Below are positions 1 through 27,526 of a DNA stretch of 40,408 nt, piece after piece. Each line of letters opens with the position of its first letter. The first letter of the stretch is position 1. Position numbers and translations under genes: made by a program. Location of the stretch: the IMG/VR virus record IMGVR_UViG_3300025086_000079, positions 1 through 40,408 of that record. One strand, written 5' to 3'. The notes beneath the pieces are model-generated. The model had not been told where the DNA came from, ran no database searches, and saw only the letters and a program-made list of their open reading frames with translations. The stretch is from a virus.

Positions 1-3000
1 CTATGTACTTACATCCTGAAAAAGGGTTGAACGAAGAAGTAATACTCCATGAAGCTACCCACAAAGGGACAGTAGCTAAAGTAAACATCTATGAAAACCA
101 AGACCCAACTAATGAGGGCTTGACTAACAAAGAAGTCGAATCCTTGGACAAACTAAAAAGTCTAATGGAAAAAGCTGAAGCACGGTATAAAGCTAAGGAT
201 AAAGCGGGCACCTTAACAGACACTGACAGAAACTTGTTTAATGCCGGTGCATTCAATGACTTAAATGAATTCATAGCTTACGCAAGAACTAACGAAGCCA
301 TGCAACAGTTCCTTAACGGGGAGCCCAGTAGGGATGGTAAGACCACATTGTTTGGTGAATTCGTAGAGCTGTTGCGCCAACTGTTTAACATACCCTCTTC
401 CCAAAAAGCAGCCTTTATGGAACTCATTAAGGCAAGTGATGCTTTGTTTGTACCCGAAACAGCTGCCAATGCTGGACAAGTATTAGCTGCCAAAAAAATT
501 AGTGACAAGAAAGAGTTCCGTGTCAAAAAAATAGTAGAAGCTATTCGCGATAATATTGGTGGGGCGCGAGGCACCTTGTCCAATATGGGTAAGTTGATGA
601 TGGAAACTAGGGATGGTGAACAGGCTATCAAAAGTTTACGGGAAGCGCTTGGTCGTATGAGTGATTCGGCAGTTGTAGCCATATCCAAAGTGCTTACTAC
701 AACTGATATTACTCGGTGGGTGAATGGTAAATTTGACGCAGTAAGAATAAACAAAGTTATTCAAGAGTTTAACAAACAACGTAACATTGCAATGGGTTTA
801 ATTCACAAACGAATTCAACCTTGGGTAGAGTTTACTAAGAATTTTCCTGCGCAAGCCAAAACTCTCGCGGATATAATGCATAGGTCTACTATATTAAATT
901 TAGATATGGCCGAACATGCCACTGTTGAAGAAGCCATTGCTAATGATGAAGTATTGAATGGGAAGCCCAGTGTAGAAAATCCTGATACACGGGTAGGAGG
1001 GTTGTATGAAGCAGCCGAAAACCCCGACTTATCAGATAGTCAACGAGCACAAATAGATGATGAAATAACACAACGAATTGCTGATATTGAAGCCATGTAC
1101 AGGTTGTGGGACGAAGTGGGTCAAGTAGACAATGGGAAAGCCCATGAAATATATGTTATGGCTAGAGATGCCTATAAAGAAACTTTTCTTAAATACCAAG
1201 AATTATTAATTGAGCATATCAACAACACAACGCAAGACCTAGCACTCCAAGACAAACTCATCAACATGATTACTTTGCAATACCAAAATGCTAAACAATT
1301 AAAAGTATATTTCCCTCTTATGCGTTATGGAAATTTTTGGATTAGGGTGGGTAAGGGTCCAGAAATGGAATTTTATATGCGGGAAACTGCTGCCGAAAGA
1401 GATGAGCTTCTAAATCAAATTGTAGGGGATAGAGACAAAGATGAGTTGATAGGTTCTGGAGAAATAAACATTGGTAACAAATTGCAAGACGGTCAAAAAG
1501 AATTGATGGGCAGCACTGAAGAGTTAAAAGAATTATTTGACTTGCTTGACACTGTGGGCAACTCTCCCCAAGACCGAGCCCAATTAAAAGATAGCATATA
1601 TCAGTTGTATCTAAGGACATTGCCGCCAGGTGCATTACGCCGCAAATTTTTAAACAGGCAAGGTTATACCGGATACAGTGAAGATGCCCTACGTAACTTT
1701 ATAAGTTCGCAGTCTAGTTCTGCTAACCAACTAGCACGGTTTGAATTTATTGCTCCACTTGAAGTTGCCATCGAAGGGGCAAAAGCCAGTGTGGATAGCA
1801 TGACTCCTAGTGAAGGTAAGCTAAAGTATGAAGCTCTTTTTAATGAATTGTCTTCTAGGGCTAGAGCAGAAATCAACCCTGTTATACCTGAAGGTTTTGA
1901 CTTTGGTAAACTCGCCGGTCTGGGTAACCAAGTGGCGTTTGTGTACATGTTGACCTCCCCCAAGTCTGCTCTTATCCAATTTACCCAAGTACCCATAGTG
2001 GGCATACCCACGTTAGTAGCTAGAGGGTACGGTAAGAAAAATGTAATGCGAGTTCTAGGGGGTTACTTAGCTGTTATAAATCGCTTTGGTAAAGACAGCC
2101 CATTGGTTGGTAAAGGTATGTTTGATGATGACGTATCTATCGTTAGTTCCAAATATATCGAAGACCACCCTAACAAAGATCAATTAAAAGCTGGATTTGA
2201 AAGAGCCAGAGATTTAGGCATTCTTAATTTAACTTACAGTGCTGATATAAGTGCTCGAAAAAAATCAGACAGTGATCAGTTCGACAACCTAGGTAAAAAA
2301 AGTTGGCGTGGTTTTGTAGACATGATGGGGTTTCTTTTCCACCATAGTGAACGGTTGTCCCGTGAGATAATGTTTATGTCTGCATTGGAACTAGAGTTAG
2401 ACAGACTCGCACAAACCAACCCTAACCTGAGTCCAGAAGCTGCTCTCAGTGCTGCCACAGAAAAAGCTGTAGAAATTACTTACGAAACTTTATTTAACTA
2501 TACGTTGTATGAAAAGCCCCCAGTAATGAAACACCCTGTAGGTAAAATAGCTACTCAGTTTTTAACGTACCCGTTACAAATGACTTCGTTTTTAGTTCGT
2601 AATTTCTTTGGCACAATATGGCCCACTATTCCCAAGGAAGAAAAGAAAGCTGCTGCCACAAAACTTTTTGGCACCATAGGAATGACTACTTTGTTTGCGG
2701 GTTTAGTAGGTGTGCCTGGGTATACAGCCATGATGGGGATGGCCGAAGGGATACGGGAAGCTCTGAGGCCCGACATGGACGATGAAGATGCTGATATATG
2801 GTATGACGAGAACGATGAAGGTAATCCGCTAGGCAAAAGGAATTTAGACTTGTGGTTTAGAGAATGGTGGATACCCACCATGTTTGGTCCTAATAGTGAC
2901 TTGGCTAGTGTGCTTGGGTTGTCACCAGAAACTGCACAAGGGGTAGCAAGAGGGGTAGAAATGGGCCCCTTATCTGCACTAACAGATTGGAATGTCGGCT

Positions 3001-3668
3001 CCTCCGTAACGCTAGATCATTTGTGGTTCCAAGATAGAGTGCCCTCAGATGATATGAAAGGAGCTTTTACACAATTTTTATTTGATACTTTTGGTGGTCC
3101 TTTAGGGGCTATGGGAGCACAAATAGCGGATGGTATACAGGATGTTAACGAGGGCAATTTTGATAGGGGCTTAGAAAAGTTTGCCCCTGCATTTTTCCGT
3201 GGACCCATGAAAGCTTTTCGAGTATCTCAAGAAGGCAGTGTAACATCCGGGCAACGTGCGCCTATCCTAGATGCAGAGTGGTACACCACGGGTAAGTTGC
3301 TTGGGCAAGCCTTAAATTTCCAACCTACTACAGAGGCTGAAATACAAAAAGCTAATTTTCTAGCCAAACGAATGACAATTGAAATACAACGGGAACGAAC
3401 TAAAGTACTCAACGAAGTTAATTTAGCTTTCGCCAAAGACATGGAGAATTCAACTGCTCGTACACGAGCTAACATTGAGGAAGCTCTAGATGCGGTAGAG
3501 GAATACAACTACCGCAATGCGTTCTACCCCATATCTGGGAACAGTGTAAACCAATCTATAACAGGACGAGCAACTACTAGGGCCGAAGGGGATCAAGGCT
3601 TAGTTGTACCTCAAACGCAGTTAGCTCCGTTCGCTTCTGATTTAGTTAGGCGCAGTAGAGTTAATTAA
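1..3668 (+). CDS. Giant virion protein with N-terminal zincin motif (5' partial)
   Basis: The frame is open at the window edge, so the true start is upstream; the first Met is probably internal. At least 1221 residues are present. A zincin-type H-E-A-T-H motif lies at residues 16-20, with a possible third ligand Glu in NEFIAYAR near residue 89, suggesting a metallopeptidase-like domain. A middle segment (about residues 430-470, KVYFPLMRYGNFWIRVG) resembles the large polyvalent proteins of phages. A hydrophobic, Gly-rich stretch near residues 888-915 could insert into a membrane. The size, and a position next to the tail genes if the genome is circular, suggest an internal virion protein ejected into the host. 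No lytic transglycosylase or polymerase motif is visible. It ends convergently with the leftward genes, sharing a 4-base TTAA overlap. The function is inferred, not shown. Confidence 0.7.
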   Translation, partial: MYLHPEKGLNEEVILHEATHKGTVAKVNIYENQDPTNEGLTNKEVESLDKLKSLMEKAEARYKAKDKAGTLTDTDRNLFNAGAFNDLNEFIAYARTNEAMQQFLNGEPSRDGKTTLFGEFVELLRQLFNIPSSQKAAFMELIKASDALFVPETAANAGQVLAAKKISDKKEFRVKKIVEAIRDNIGGARGTLSNMGKLMMETRDGEQAIKSLREALGRMSDSAVVAISKVLTTTDITRWVNGKFDAVRINKVIQEFNKQRNIAMGLIHKRIQPWVEFTKNFPAQAKTLADIMHRSTILNLDMAEHATVEEAIANDEVLNGKPSVENPDTRVGGLYEAAENPDLSDSQRAQIDDEITQRIADIEAMYRLWDEVGQVDNGKAHEIYVMARDAYKETFLKYQELLIEHINNTTQDLALQDKLINMITLQYQNAKQLKVYFPLMRYGNFWIRVGKGPEMEFYMRETAAERDELLNQIVGDRDKDELIGSGEINIGNKLQDGQKELMGSTEELKELFDLLDTVGNSPQDRAQLKDSIYQLYLRTLPPGALRRKFLNRQGYTGYSEDALRNFISSQSSSANQLARFEFIAPLEVAIEGAKASVDSMTPSEGKLKYEALFNELSSRARAEINPVIPEGFDFGKLAGLGNQVAFVYMLTSPKSALIQFTQVPIVGIPTLVARGYGKKNVMRVLGGYLAVINRFGKDSPLVGKGMFDDDVSIVSSKYIEDHPNKDQLKAGFERARDLGILNLTYSADISARKKSDSDQFDNLGKKSWRGFVDMMGFLFHHSERLSREIMFMSALELELDRLAQTNPNLSPEAALSAATEKAVEITYETLFNYTLYEKPPVMKHPVGKIATQFLTYPLQMTSFLVRNFFGTIWPTIPKEEKKAAATKLFGTIGMTTLFAGLVGVPGYTAMMGMAEGIREALRPDMDDEDADIWYDENDEGNPLGKRNLDLWFREWWIPTMFGPNSDLASVLGLSPETAQGVARGVEMGPLSALTDWNVGSSVTLDHLWFQDRVPSDDMKGAFTQFLFDTFGGPLGAMGAQIADGIQDVNEGNFDRGLEKFAPAFFRGPMKAFRVSQEGSVTSGQRAPILDAEWYTTGKLLGQALNFQPTTEAEIQKANFLAKRMTIEIQRERTKVLNEVNLAFAKDMENSTARTRANIEEALDAVEEYNYRNAFYPISGNSVNQSITGRATTRAEGDQGLVVPQTQLAPFASDLVRRSRVN

Positions 3669-12537: not shown

Positions 12538-13010
12538 TCCACAACTCGTTTTGACAACTCACCATCAACTAACACTTTTACACGGGCAGAAAAAACTGAA
12601 TCAACTTTACCAGGGGAACCTTTAATAAACTTTACAGGGGAGTTCATAAACGTGTGAGGAGAAACAGCAGCATACACTCGCCAATTTGTATTACGACCCC
12701 CGCACCGCCGAGAAATAATAAAAGGGCCGAGCATTAAGTTAGACCCTAACCACACCTCTAAATCAGTTACGTCACCCTCAGAAAAAGCAAAAATATGAGC
12801 GGCTATAGCACCATATTTCTTTTGGAAATCGCGTTGTGTTTCCGTACCCCCTGCCCCTAATACATACATGAGTCTTTTGTAATGCGTAGGGTGAAGGACT
12901 ACCCTTATTGTTTCACGCGGATCTGCTAAAACCGTTTCATCTACCCTGAGATTAAAACTGTTTACATGGCCTATGTGATTAGTCACCGCACGTACACGAT
13001 GGTCAGACAT
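12534..13010 (-). CDS. Unrecognised replication-block protein
   Basis: This 158-residue protein is rich in beta-forming segments with little low complexity. It is locked between two nuclease genes by one overlap at each end (TAATG at the start, ATGA at the stop), so its stoichiometry should match theirs. No catalytic signature is visible; there is a single Cys (in RRCGGRNTNW). A partner or specificity subunit of the neighbouring PD-(D/E)XK nuclease is one possibility, based on context only. Confidence 0.6.
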   Translation of the reverse strand: MSDHRVRAVTNHIGHVNSFNLRVDETVLADPRETIRVVLHPTHYKRLMYVLGAGGTETQRDFQKKYGAIAAHIFAFSEGDVTDLEVWLGSNLMLGPFIISRRCGGRNTNWRVYAAVSPHTFMNSPVKFIKGSPGKVDSVFSARVKVLVDGELSKRVVE

Positions 13011-16203: not shown

Positions 16204-16413
16204 TTAGAAAGTCGTCATGAAATCAAACACAACCCAAAGCATAATCGCCACTACAGCTACATGTAACAACAACATACCAAGCAACCCGACTCTCCATTTT
16301 TTTGGAGTAGGAGAGCCGTAAATTTTACTTTCTTTGCTCATATCAATACTCACATCTCTTTTGGCAGCTACTCTTCGCGCCGCTTGCATAGTTTTAATTT
16401 GGGCTAGTGTCAT
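16204..16413 (-). CDS. Small C-terminal membrane-anchored protein
   Basis: This 69-residue protein has a basic soluble N-terminal half and one transmembrane segment near the C-terminus (VGLLGMLLLHVAVVAIMLWVV). I prefer the second of two adjacent ATGs because GGGGAG lies five bases upstream of it. The gene overlaps the preceding 54-residue gene by 20 bases. The size and topology would also fit a holin-like or host-membrane-acting protein, but the location among early genes argues against lysis. Confidence 0.6.
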   Translation of the reverse strand: MTLAQIKTMQAARRVAAKRDVSIDMSKESKIYGSPTPKKWRVGLLGMLLLHVAVVAIMLWVVFDFMTTF

Positions 16414-16558
16414 CATTGCTCCCCTTTTTGTTTTCTACAATAAGATACTTAGCGTCACTCGGCCAGTTCTCCACTACGTTTTGCCAATGTTCTACTTGCT
16501 GTAGCATTTGAACAATGTTCGCTTGGACTTGCTCTTTAGTTAGTTTTATTTCACTCAT
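16394..16558 (-). CDS. 54-residue helical protein
   Basis: A short frame starts MSEIKLTKEQVQANIVQ and continues with a Gln-rich amphipathic helix (MLQQVEHWQNVVENW). Its ATG overlaps the upstream TGA as ATGA, with AAGG close by. It ends inside the start of the membrane protein gene. The unbroken overlap chain on both sides is the evidence for expression. No family is recognised. Confidence 0.6.
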   Translation of the reverse strand: MSEIKLTKEQVQANIVQMLQQVEHWQNVVENWPSDAKYLIVENKKGSNDDTSPN

Positions 16559-21337: not shown

Positions 21338-21366
21338 TATTATCCAGATATGTATCACATTGTAAA
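21338..21366 (-). promoter_or_regulatory. Leftward sigma-70-like promoter
   Basis: On the minus strand TTTACA (21366-21361) and ATAATA (21343-21338) are separated by 17 bases, upstream of the 50-residue gene. One copy of the ACATTGTAAAGCTT repeat (21357-21370) covers the -35 box, so a repeat-binding protein could control this promoter. Confidence 0.5.
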
Positions 21367-21720
21367 GCTTTAAAGTAATTTAATTTGTTTACAAGAGAAG
21401 AAAAGTTTACGCGCTTTCTAACATTGCAAAGCTTAGGAATTACCGAGCCTGGAGAGAAAAAAATAATGTAATGTTATAAAGTAAAGTTTTTTAAGATATA
21501 TATAATACTCGTGAGCTTTTTTTATTGCTTCGAGCCCGAGCCTTGCTAGACATTAAAACCTAGATATACCATTTTTAATTGCTAACATTATTACAATATT
21601 ACAGCCCAATAGGCGCAAGCTTTGTAAGCTTTCTATAATGTAAACTTTTTGAGCCATTGTTTACAACGCACGATTAGTGTATACCGGTGCCCCGTATGTA
21701 TCACAATGTAATACAACCGG
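21357..21720. repeat. AT-rich repeat field, candidate origin or operator region
   Basis: The stretch holds ACATTGTAAAGCTT (21357-21370), ACATTGCAAAGCTT (21421-21434) and an inverted partial copy, AAGCTTTGTAA (21617-21627). It also has repeated TGTATCACAWTGTAA (around 21351 and 21696), several TTGTTTACA/AATGTAAAC words and an isolated TATAAT at 21501-21506 and 21634-21639. There is no gene in it. It separates the leftward and rightward transcription units, the usual place for an origin or shared control region. GC-rich near-palindromes close the field at about 21682-21733. Confidence 0.5.
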
Positions 21721-21737
21721 GCCCCGGTCCCCTGGTA

Positions 21738-21935
21738 TTACTTGGATGATATTCCTAGCGACACAATCAACTCAGCTTGTAAGATCTCCCGTAATATCGC
21801 CATGGATAGTTTAGAGCTCGATTTTATAGGGCCCCCAAATTTGTGGTATACGGGATTAACAGAGCCCACCATATGGGCACCCCACCGAATCAGCAGCAAA
21901 AGTACCAATACCCTTATAATTACTAATCTGCACAT
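21738..21935 (-). CDS. Possible 65-residue membrane protein (doubtful)
   Basis: A minus-strand frame from ATG 21935 has a hydrophobic segment near its start (LVIIRVLVLLLLIRWG) and an amphipathic C-terminal half. No ribosome binding site is seen, and the frame also continues upstream through the C-rich and parS stretch, where coding is unlikely. I list it because the control region is otherwise empty of genes from 21293 to 22106. Confidence 0.2.
   Translation of the reverse strand: MCRLVIIRVLVLLLLIRWGAHMVGSVNPVYHKFGGPIKSSSKLSMAILREILQAELIVSLGISSK
21881..21892 (+). repeat. 12-base direct repeat, copy 1
   Basis: CCCACCGAATCA occurs here and again at 22055-22066. The two copies bracket the parS site, and the second lies in the spacer of the rightward promoter, so the pair may be binding sites for a regulator. 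Confidence 0.5.
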
Positions 21936-22008
21936 TAGATATTCTATTTTTGAAAAACTTACCCCACCCCCTTTGTTTTTTCGACTTCCTCTACAGACCC
22001 CACCCCCC

Positions 22009-22024
22009 TGTTCCACGTGAAACA
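22009..22024 (+). promoter_or_regulatory. parS: Perfect parS centromere site (ParB-binding)
   Basis: TGTTCCACGTGAAACA matches the bacterial chromosome parS consensus TGTTNCACGTGAAACA at every position. parS sites are bound by ParB (Spo0J), a CTPase clamp that loads there and slides along DNA. The site lies in the non-coding control region, 22 bases upstream of the -35 box of the rightward promoter and about 82 bases before the small terminase start. No ParB or ParA gene is visible in the window, so binding by the host protein is the simplest reading. It is the only full site I found here. Confidence 0.85.
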
Positions 22025-22045
22025 CCTCCTTTGGAGTCCCAAAAC

Positions 22046-22074
22046 TTGCACCCACCCACCGAATCACATACACT
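22046..22074 (+). promoter_or_regulatory. Rightward promoter for the packaging and head genes
   Basis: TTGCAC (22046-22051) and TACACT (22069-22074) are separated by exactly 17 bases, 33 bases before the small terminase ATG. The 12-base repeat CCCACCGAATCA (22055-22066) fills the spacer. An AGTAC...GTACT inverted repeat (22086-22100) follows in the untranslated leader. Confidence 0.5.
22055..22066 (+). repeat. 12-base direct repeat, copy 2
   Basis: This is the second CCCACCGAATCA, inside the spacer of the rightward promoter. See the first copy at 21881-21892. Confidence 0.5.
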
Positions 22075-22106
22075 TCGCAAAACCAGTACTGCTAGGTACT
22101 TGCGCG

Positions 22107-22718
22107 ATGGCTGTTGTAAAAATAGAACCTACTAAGGAACACCCCGTCCCTTATGATTTAAGTGACGAAACGCCTTCGACTGTGTTGGATGAGGTAGCCG
22201 TGTCGGCTAACACAGCTGAAACCCAGGTTTCACTAGGGGCACCATTAGAAGTGTCGGCAAAAGATGAGGCCCGCGAGAAGGCTCTCTTAGACGCTGTAGC
22301 GAAAGATCGCAAAATTTCCAATTTAAAAACCCCCACCACCGCTTATGCTGCTGCATCGTTCCTCAGAGCGTATGGTTCGCAATTAGGACTAGACGCAGCA
22401 AGTGCACGTACTGCGATTACTAACAAGTTAATGGAAATAGCCGACTGTGGTGATACCCGGTTTGAACTTAAGGCATTGGAATTATTAGGGAAACACAGCG
22501 ATATTGGATTGTTTACAGAGCGCAGTGAGATAACTATTAACTACAAGAGTCCAGAAGACTTGGAAAATGCGATTAAAGAGCGGGTTAAACGGCTACTTAA
22601 CGCAGATGTGGTGGACGTTGTGCCATTAAATGCAGATCTGGATGAGGAGCTAGGAGTTTTTACAGAGCCCGAAAAGCCTGAGTTAATAGAAGAACTTGAG
22701 GTTGATGCTGGTGAGTAG
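22107..22718 (+). CDS. terS: Terminase small subunit
   Basis: This 203-residue protein precedes the large terminase and overlaps its start. The core (RFELKALELLGKHSDIGLFTERSEITINY, about residues 130-160, then AIKERVKRLL) matches a small-terminase type common in phages. The helical middle would hold the DNA-binding and oligomerisation part; the tail is acidic. I start it at ATG 22107. A frame extending back to 22017 would translate through the control region and is rejected. It should recognise the packaging site, possibly in the non-coding region just upstream. Confidence 0.8.
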   Translation: MAVVKIEPTKEHPVPYDLSDETPSTVLDEVAVSANTAETQVSLGAPLEVSAKDEAREKALLDAVAKDRKISNLKTPTTAYAAASFLRAYGSQLGLDAASARTAITNKLMEIADCGDTRFELKALELLGKHSDIGLFTERSEITINYKSPEDLENAIKERVKRLLNADVVDVVPLNADLDEELGVFTEPEKPELIEELEVDAGE

Positions 22719-24237
22719 TCCCTTGGAAGACATAGCTCTCAAGGATATACCGACCATACTACCTATGTTGTCTCTGCCAGAGCAGGAAAAGCTGTTGGCA
22801 GAGCTAGAGCACTTGGAAGAACTTAAGAAACGTACCTTGATCCAAGATAGGTTTATGAAATTTGTAGAGGCAATGTGGCCTACGTTTATTGCTGGTAGGC
22901 ATCATAGCAGGATGGCATCGGCCTTTGAGCGCGTAGCCCGTGGGGAATGTAAAAGATTAATCATCAACATGCCCCCGCGTCATACCAAGAGTGAGTTCGC
23001 TTCATACCTGTTACCGGCTTGGTTTCTGGGCAAGTATCCGCATAAAAAAGTTATTCAGACCTCGCATACCGCAGAGCTGGCGGTAGGGTTTGGTCGTAAG
23101 GTTAGAAACTTAGTCGATAAACAGACGTACACTGAAGTTTTCCCTGGTTTAGGTTTACAAAGTGATTCAAAGGCAGCGGGACGCTGGAACACCAGTAAGG
23201 GCGGGGATTACTTTGCGATTGGTGTGGGCGGTGCGGTAACTGGTAAGGGCGCAGACTTGTTGATTATTGATGACCCGCACTCAGAACAAGAAGCCGCTTT
23301 AGCTGAGAACAGCCCTGAAATATACGACAAGACTTACGAGTGGTACACATCCGGTCCCCGGCAAAGACTCCAGCCTGGTGGGGCTATTGTTATTGTAATG
23401 ACCCGCTGGTCCCAACGAGATCTTACCGCACAAGTCTTAAAATCTTCCGCACAACGCGGAGGAGAAGAATGGGAAGTCATTGAATTTCCTGCACTTATGC
23501 CCAGTGGGAATCCTCTGTGGCCTGAGTTTTGGCCCCCAGAAGAACTGGCTGCTCTTAAGGAAGAACTGCCTAATTCCAAGTGGATGGCGCAGTACCAGCA
23601 GAACCCTACGTCAGAAGAATCGGCTATTGTAAAAAGAGAGTGGTGGAAGATCTGGGAAGAAGATGAGCCTCCGCAATGCAATTTTGTATTGATGTCCTGG
23701 GATACGGCGTTTGAAAAAACTCAACGTGCTGACTATTCGGCGCTGACAACGTGGGGAGTGTTCTACCAAGATGATGACGCAGGAGCACCACAAGCTAACA
23801 TTATCTTACTTAATGCTTATCGTGAACGAATGGAGTTTCCTAGACTTAAGCAAGTAGCTATTGAAGAGTACAAAGAATGGGAGCCAGACTCTATTATCAT
23901 TGAGAAAAAAGCATCCGGTGCGCCGCTCATTTATGAGATGCGGGCAATGGGAGTCCCGGTGCAAGAGTTTACTCCGACTAAGGGGAATGACAAAATAGCT
24001 AGGTTAAACGCTGTTTCTGACCTATTTGCTTCTGGAATGGTGTGGGCTCCTAACACACATTGGGCTGAAGAAGTAATGGATGAGGTTGCAAGCTTTCCAG
24101 CAGGGGAGCATGATGACTACGTAGACTCTACTTCTATGGCACTTATGCGGTTTAGAAGAGGTGGGTTTGTCAGGCTACCATCAGATGAAGAGGAAGACGC
24201 CCCATACTATAGACGGCGAAGAGGGGGTTTTTATTAG
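22705..24237 (+). CDS. terL: Terminase large subunit (TIGR01630-type)
   Basis: This packaging motor and nuclease is about 510 residues long. Its ATPase has the divergent Walker A PPRHTKS (near residues 90-96), Walker B LLIIDDPH (near 185-192) and VMTRWSQRDL. The C-terminal RNase H-like nuclease has SWDTAF (Asp near 333), IIEKKASGAP (Glu near 400) and GEHDDYVDS (Asp pair near 470). All catalytic positions are present. ATG 22705 and GTG 22711 are both possible starts after GAGG. It overlaps terS at its start and the zinc-ribbon gene at its stop, so the three are coupled. Confidence 0.95.
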   Translation: MLVSSPLEDIALKDIPTILPMLSLPEQEKLLAELEHLEELKKRTLIQDRFMKFVEAMWPTFIAGRHHSRMASAFERVARGECKRLIINMPPRHTKSEFASYLLPAWFLGKYPHKKVIQTSHTAELAVGFGRKVRNLVDKQTYTEVFPGLGLQSDSKAAGRWNTSKGGDYFAIGVGGAVTGKGADLLIIDDPHSEQEAALAENSPEIYDKTYEWYTSGPRQRLQPGGAIVIVMTRWSQRDLTAQVLKSSAQRGGEEWEVIEFPALMPSGNPLWPEFWPPEELAALKEELPNSKWMAQYQQNPTSEESAIVKREWWKIWEEDEPPQCNFVLMSWDTAFEKTQRADYSALTTWGVFYQDDDAGAPQANIILLNAYRERMEFPRLKQVAIEEYKEWEPDSIIIEKKASGAPLIYEMRAMGVPVQEFTPTKGNDKIARLNAVSDLFASGMVWAPNTHWAEEVMDEVASFPAGEHDDYVDSTSMALMRFRRGGFVRLPSDEEEDAPYYRRRRGGFY

Positions 24238-26926: not shown

Positions 26927-27123
26927 TGGCTAAAACTGTCTTTGAAGTATTGGTAGAAAAACTGACTGACCAGAAACGGTCTAGCGAAGACTTTATAAAA
27001 AGCGGCGCAGCTAAAGATTACGCCGATTATAAAGAAGTGTGTGGTGTGCTTCGGGGTCTGGACACCGCATTACGAGAAGTAAATGACCTCTCGCGTATAC
27101 ACATGGAAAACCAAGATGACTGA
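26926..27123 (+). CDS. Small helical head-module protein
   Basis: This 65-residue protein is predicted helical and amphipathic throughout (VFEVLVEKLTDQKRSSEDFI, then YKEVCGVLRGLDTALREV). It starts one base inside the portal stop codon and ends inside the co-chaperonin start. Many phages encode such a short protein after the portal; its role is not known. Confidence 0.7.
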   Translation: MAKTVFEVLVEKLTDQKRSSEDFIKSGAAKDYADYKEVCGVLRGLDTALREVNDLSRIHMENQDD

Positions 27124-27526
27124 AATGACAGCCTTAGAAATCAAACGTAGAGATAAGCTGCAAGAGGAAGAAGTAGCGCAAGAGAAGTTAGATGCCCTTA
27201 TCCCCAAGCCTGTGGGATACAGAGTACTTATTGCGTTGCCTAACGTAGAAGACACTTTTGCTGGTGGTATAGCAAAAGCAGCCAAGACACTCCATGAAGA
27301 GTACATCCTGTCTACGATAGGGTTGGTACTGGACATGGGAGAGCAAGCGTATGCGGATAAAGACCGATTTCCCACTGGTCCCTGGTGTAAACAAGGTGAC
27401 TACGTAATGTTTCGGGCCAATACTGGCACGCGCTTTAAAGTCGGCAAACAAGAGTATCGTCTGATGAATGATGATTCTATTGAAGCTGTCGTTGATGACC
27501 CGAGTGTAATATCTCGCGCAAACTAA
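27116..27526 (+). CDS. GroES-like co-chaperonin
   Basis: This 136-residue protein has a Cpn10-like core: PVGYRVLIALP at the first strand, a mobile-loop-like GGIAKAAKTLHEEY, STIGLVLDMGEQAY, then GDYVMFRANTGTRFKVGKQEYRLMNDDSIEAVV. This is the order of a GroES domain. It would cap host GroEL and help fold the capsid or other virion proteins, as T4 gp31 does. I start it at ATG 27116, overlapping the upstream gene, since an upstream start at 27083 lies deep within that gene. Its place between portal and scaffold supports a head assembly role. Confidence 0.85.
   Translation: MTEMTALEIKRRDKLQEEEVAQEKLDALIPKPVGYRVLIALPNVEDTFAGGIAKAAKTLHEEYILSTIGLVLDMGEQAYADKDRFPTGPWCKQGDYVMFRANTGTRFKVGKQEYRLMNDDSIEAVVDDPSVISRAN

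Follow-up and report, generated by a model that had tools for sequence, protein, structure and literature searches.

A chromosome-type parS site beside the packaging genes of a podovirus-like phage: a probable loading site for host ParB

Phage-borne partition systems with their own ParA and ParB are textbook knowledge, and P1 and N15 are phage-plasmids that each carry their own ParABS. The ties of ParB to ParA and to condensin are also established. Extrachromosomal mycobacterial prophages likewise encode their own ParABS (PMC7157519), and a recent survey of the ParB fold deals with phage ParB-like proteins, in passages that make no mention of orphan sites (PMC12704722). For chromosomes, CTP-gated loading of ParB clamps at parS and their subsequent spreading are established (PMC7022226, PMC7053999). 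Stolen sites have been described in SGI1 islands, where two parS copies make the island more stable and drive out the helper plasmid (PMC10954446). Papers printing TGTTTCACGTGAAACA, one of the parS variants considered below, concern chromosomes, plasmids, or methods, as judged by their titles, and ParB is not mentioned in two papers on phages related to the one analyzed here (PMC9599517, PMC12753301). An orphan host-type parS on a phage was not found in the literature searched, outside which lie most subscription papers and preprints.

The parS site and its surroundings

The window, that is, the whole stretch of viral DNA analyzed, comprises an entire IMG/VR record of 40.4 kb, which is linear and has no end repeats. 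It is a fragment, since relatives with a similar terminase reach 57–63 kb, and for this reason the absence of ParB was also tested in full-length relatives. The gene content is that of a podovirus-like lytic phage. The leftward arm encodes a primase-helicase, SSB, a helicase, an exonuclease, and PolA, while the rightward arm contains genes for the terminase subunits TerS and TerL, the portal, a GroES-like co-chaperonin, and head and tail proteins. TerL (22696..24237, + strand) belongs to the HTVC023P-type family (phrog_38, 4.9e-106), and the small subunit TerS (22107..22718, + strand), which had no PHROG match, was assigned by its position before TerL. The window contains the core set of HTVC023P-type phages, namely terminase, PolA, helicase, and GroES co-chaperonin (core list in PMC9599517). 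The gene for this co-chaperonin (27083-27526, phrog_3188) lies within the head cluster. A large open reading frame at the extreme left end of the record (3-3668) matched a DarB-like antirestriction protein (phrog_10089). The 18-28 kb portion of the window had no DNA-level match in the phage collection. When 84,980 genomes were scanned with TerL for a possible host, only four matched; these matches lie in MAG bins from several groups that are unrelated, are most likely due to mis-binned contigs, and were given no weight in host assignment. A Dehalococcoidia MAG "chromosome" (CP070693.1) with a terminase 80% identical to that of the window's phage family is probably a chimeric assembly.

The two arms are separated by an unstranded intergenic control region of 748 bp (21359..22106), which lies between the early/replication genes and the packaging genes and contains the parS site. 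The site, TGTTCCACGTGAAACA (22009..22024, + strand), is a near-palindrome that agrees perfectly with the 16-bp host-type consensus TGTTNCACGTGNAACA, which places it within the definition of chromosomal-type parS. The sequence-only reading had reported a perfect match in a single copy, and this is correct: no second copy of TGTTCCACGTGAAACA was found in the window at up to two mismatches, and the next-best match, at 12909, has three. The chance expectation for TGTTNCACGTGNAACA, recomputed with first-order composition, was 0.0002 per window, nearly equal to the earlier estimate of 0.0003. The 16-mer at 22009-22024 is genuine, occurs only once in the record, and greatly exceeds chance expectation.

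The parS site occupies a slot flanked by two C-tracts, of which CCCCACCCCCC (21998..22008, + strand) is located directly 5' of it; in relatives without parS, the slot between the C-tracts is filled by unrelated sequence. C-rich tracts (CCCCACCCCC) are recurrent in the control region of this family, occurring in the window at 21962-21971 and 21998-22008, and are multiplied upstream of TerS in the relative L167. A second conserved element, TTACTAATCTGCACATTAGATA (21920..21941, + strand), recurs 5' of the packaging genes in most of the relatives inspected, whether or not they have parS, and may be a promoter, an origin, or a packaging element. The putative promoter of the packaging operon, TTGCAC-17-TACACT (22046..22074, + strand), starts 22 bp past parS and is kept in the close relatives L237, L156, and L241. 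It had been called a good promoter; the element is indeed there and is conserved, but it is weak by consensus and falls below the promoter-scan threshold, so that "good" was an overstatement.

Conservation, recurrence, and orphan state of the site

The nearest kin of the window were picked by a TerS scan of IMG/VR. All four close relatives in which the slot is covered have a perfect parS in the corresponding gap before the terminase genes, so the conservation on which the sequence-only reading had made its proposal depend was found. These relatives are L236 (TerS 100% identical, site TGTTCCACGTGAAACA), L237 (85%, TGTTCCACGTGAAACA), the single contig designated L156 or L238 (78%, TGTTTCACGTGAAACA), and L241 (78%, TGTTTCACGTGGAACA). 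The changes in the site are confined to positions 5 and 12, which are free in parS, and the upstream regions as a whole align at 67-71%, with substitutions in the flanks and with indels on both sides, directly at the site. One outer base of parS is mismatched in two more distant relatives (L167 and L185), and two bases are mismatched in L191. Nearly all other loci, with TerS identity below 75%, are without parS in the 700 bp upstream, which indicates that the site is dispensable or replaced in most of the window's TerL subfamily. The window groups with L237 and L238 in a single supported clade (99) of the TerL tree, on which parS was gained or lost at least 10 times.

A search of all viral contigs with the parS pattern yielded at least 120 stretches, compared with 34 for a reversed-pattern control. 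Among the matches listed, the free positions were T/A in 82 sites, C/A in 29, C/G in 27, and other combinations in 7; thus, 138 of these 145 sites have Y..R there, which corresponds to parS usage and not to chance. Sites outside long reading frames made up 66 of the 145 among the matches listed and 8 of 34 in the control (p = 0.02). The window's terminase/portal/capsid family accounted for 24 of the 120 matches listed and for none of the 34 controls (p = 0.002). The site precedes TerL, for example, in L006, L013, L040, L051, L055, L083, L090, L091, and L098, and the portal gene in some family members. It is located between the portal and GroES genes in L047, L058, and L115 and after the portal gene in L114, and it may lie far from TerL (-3867 in L044 and +4517 in L114). 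Since the contigs found in this way were selected for parS, its frequency was judged from terminase-based samples only, and in two of these the TerL queries (L040 and L103) were themselves taken from parS-bearing contigs.

In the L040 clade, a sister clade sampled by TerL, parS precedes TerL by about 90-120 bp (-87 to -110 when counted from the start of the match) in 27 of the 34 informative loci, with 25 perfect copies, and is missing from one subclade (L358-L363) and from L337. In the alignment of this clade, parS is the best conserved 16-bp window (0.96 vs 0.59 for the surroundings) and is better conserved than the start of the terminase gene. Both half-sites have changed jointly in L347 and L357, from TTTCAC/GTGAAA to TTCCAC/GTGGAA. 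The L103 clade, with TerL about 33% identical to that of the window, contained 100 perfect parS sites in 0.80 Mb, where 0.003 were expected and the reversed control gave 0; 99 of the 100 are upstream of TerL. Of the 47 loci in which 2.5 kb or more of upstream sequence is available, 28 contain at least one site and 22 at least two. In L103 and L369-L446, one to five perfect parS sites form centromere-like arrays, mostly in the 2 kb or so that precede TerL. Overall, variation among relatives is limited to the free positions, with half-sites changing together, and a few members are off by one base.

Cultured phages were also inspected. Eighteen named phages with a related terminase or polymerase, together about 1 Mb with 0.004 perfect sites expected, included one with a perfect site, four with one mismatch, and 13 with none. 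The perfect site, TGTTCCACGTGGAACA, belongs to the Pseudomonas aeruginosa phage KPP25 (16588-16603) and is located between the ORF018 stop codon and an intrinsic terminator, upstream of a head gene. It is identical to parS2/parS3 of P. aeruginosa, the sites of that chromosome bound most tightly by ParB, so that the very 16-mer of KPP25 is ParB-bound on the host chromosome (PMC4368675). CRPAP1904, a relative of KPP25, is described as lytic (PMC13340246). Three other cultured phages that were checked, all nearly identical to KPP25, also have TGTTCCACGTGGAACA, but the four cultured members of the KPP25 genus are 98% alike and are too similar to demonstrate selection. The site is limited to this genus within its group, since 79 loci with related head proteins (about 60-74% identity) were without it. 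The cultured Pelagibacter phage HTVC027P, a family member called obligately lytic (PMC12753301), carries CGTTTCACGTGAAACA between genes at 16412-16427, with one mismatch at the outermost base. The match TGTTCCACGTGGAACC in Roseobacter phage CRP-810 lies inside a long gene and is probably due to chance or coding. Judging by these sequence comparisons, parS is a selected, recurrent feature of these phages, and the idea of a borrowed host site is supported beyond the original proposal, since it recurs in several phage clades.

The ParB domain PF02195 went undetected in the window and in 13 relatives of up to 73 kb, while positive controls were matched. It was likewise not found in 36 further records of parS-bearing clades, several of them 56-62 kb long, or in 20 more records that included the complete genomes of KPP25, phiR18, HTVC027P, and HTVC023P. 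ParA (PF13614) was absent from 44 records and tyrosine integrase (PF00589) from 40 records, the window included in both cases; neither a serine recombinase nor a plasmid-type replication initiator turned up in the PHROGs scan of window proteins. The remark that no phage ParB was visible thus extends from the record, where neither ParA nor ParB was detected, to its full-length relatives, where none was found. Among 85 distinct parS-bearing viral records scanned, only three contained the ParB_N domain (PF02195), indicating that parS is, as a rule, an orphan.

Probable loading of host ParB and alternative explanations

Since these phages carry parS without its reader protein, they probably borrow the segregation protein of the host. 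We consider the site to be a centromere (parS) that would load host chromosomal ParB on the phage genome, with a probability of roughly 0.8. Upon entry of the phage DNA, host ParB-CTP clamps would load at parS and slide over the adjoining phage DNA. The phage genome would thereby come under the host ParB machinery, plausibly together with ParA and the ParB-recruited SMC condensin, and the phage would need to encode none of it. Binding of ParB to the phage parS in the cell is predicted here from the sequence. Loading of host ParB best accounts for the sequence rule followed by the sites, their recurrence in distant clades at shifting places, their orphan state, and the host-specific variant in KPP25. 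It is also likely that lytic phages of several aquatic clades and of the KPP25 genus capture the host centromere-binding machinery as a general infection strategy, which would use orphan parS beside packaging or head genes and act through ParB, perhaps with SMC or ParA, on phage DNA.

The benefit to the phage can be named only tentatively. The likeliest option is that the ParB load positions or organizes replicating phage DNA near the packaging start, and positioning or condensin loading at this place fits single sites beside the terminase genes. A rather unlikely variant is a timer of late genes, in which ParB would spread over the packaging and head genes and keep them off until replication dilutes it. 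The sites are mostly upstream of terminase or head genes, and native ParB represses promoters adjoining parS3 and parS4 in P. aeruginosa, but stronger silencing requires an excess of ParB (PMC5521831), and some sites are far from TerL (L044, L114). Moreover, parS and the promoter are some 20 bp apart in the window and L237 but nearly 200 bp apart in L156 and L241. This variable spacing speaks against a timer, makes a fixed operator of the promoter an unfavored option, and weakens the earlier suggestion that parS silences the nearby promoter as a fixed switch. More doubtful still is a decoy function, in which hundreds of phage parS copies would strip ParB from the chromosome and disturb segregation and division. 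SGI1 acts in this way on IncC plasmids with its two stolen copies (PMC10954446), and the L103 clade has arrays of up to five sites; however, most phages considered here have a single site, there is little obvious reason for a lytic phage to halt segregation in a doomed host, and a decoy would not require a position near late genes. The likelihood would thus decrease from positioning through the late-gene timer to ParB titration.

The region upstream of TerS and TerL is the classic neighborhood of pac sites and late promoters. The 16-mer, found there in many members, could therefore be recognized by a phage protein (TerS or a late regulator, for example) as an operator or pac site and resemble parS by convergence. 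This is improbable, because the site is not tied to the terminase (portal-GroES interval in L047, L058, and L115, after the portal in L114, before a head gene in KPP25), TerS of most relatives works without it, and distant clades share the 16-mer with parS-type variation only, KPP25 having the exact variant of its host. Segregation of an episomal prophage, as proposed by the sequence-only reading, is not favored, because no tyrosine integrase was found and cultured HTVC027P is called obligately lytic (PMC12753301); the other parts of that interpretation, a host-type parS kept in relatives and no phage ParB found, held. Chance or contamination with host DNA, whose chromosomes do carry the same site, is practically negligible given the 0.0002 matches expected, the recurrence of the slot in independent contigs where phage sequence flanks it on either side, the low or nil reversed-pattern controls, and the conservation found in relatives.

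Significance and comparison with known systems

Orphan parS is of high interest, being conserved, recurrent, and open to direct testing, and KPP25 and P. aeruginosa PAO1, for which parB mutants exist, offer a laboratory pair for a direct test. If host ParB is indeed loaded, the chromosome segregation machinery would join the host systems seized by lytic phages, and 16 bp of DNA without any protein would suffice for this. Such loading would also account for the conservation of non-coding DNA in phages related to some of the most abundant marine ones, and the parS variant, matched to a host with ParB, could serve as a host-reading clue in metagenomes. Stolen parS was already known from SGI1; within the literature searched, the orphan chromosome-type parS in lytic-type phages appears to be new, and no phage with a host-type site was encountered there, in line with the earlier remark that it is not a standard phage feature.

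The nearest named kin of the window are the HTVC023P-type phages HTVC027P, DSL-LC04, and 023Pt_psg01, with TerL identities of 50-58%, and among the four phages of this type checked, only HTVC027P has the site, with one mismatch. Chromosomal parS, exemplified by P. aeruginosa parS2/parS3 (PMC4368675), has the same sequence, exactly so in KPP25, whereas the sites described here are on phage genomes, usually as one copy beside terminase or head genes. P1, N15, and the mycobacterial prophages likewise have a centromere on a phage genome, but it is their own site, served by their own ParA/ParB; the phages analyzed here have a site of the host chromosome type and yielded no ParA/ParB. The SGI1 islands, which hijack the parABS of IncC plasmids (PMC10954446), are similar in being mobile elements with parS-like copies that use the segregation system of another replicon. 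However, SGI1 is an integrative island that must persist and robs a helper plasmid, while the phages, which have no detectable integrase and some of which are cultured, carry the chromosomal parS consensus.
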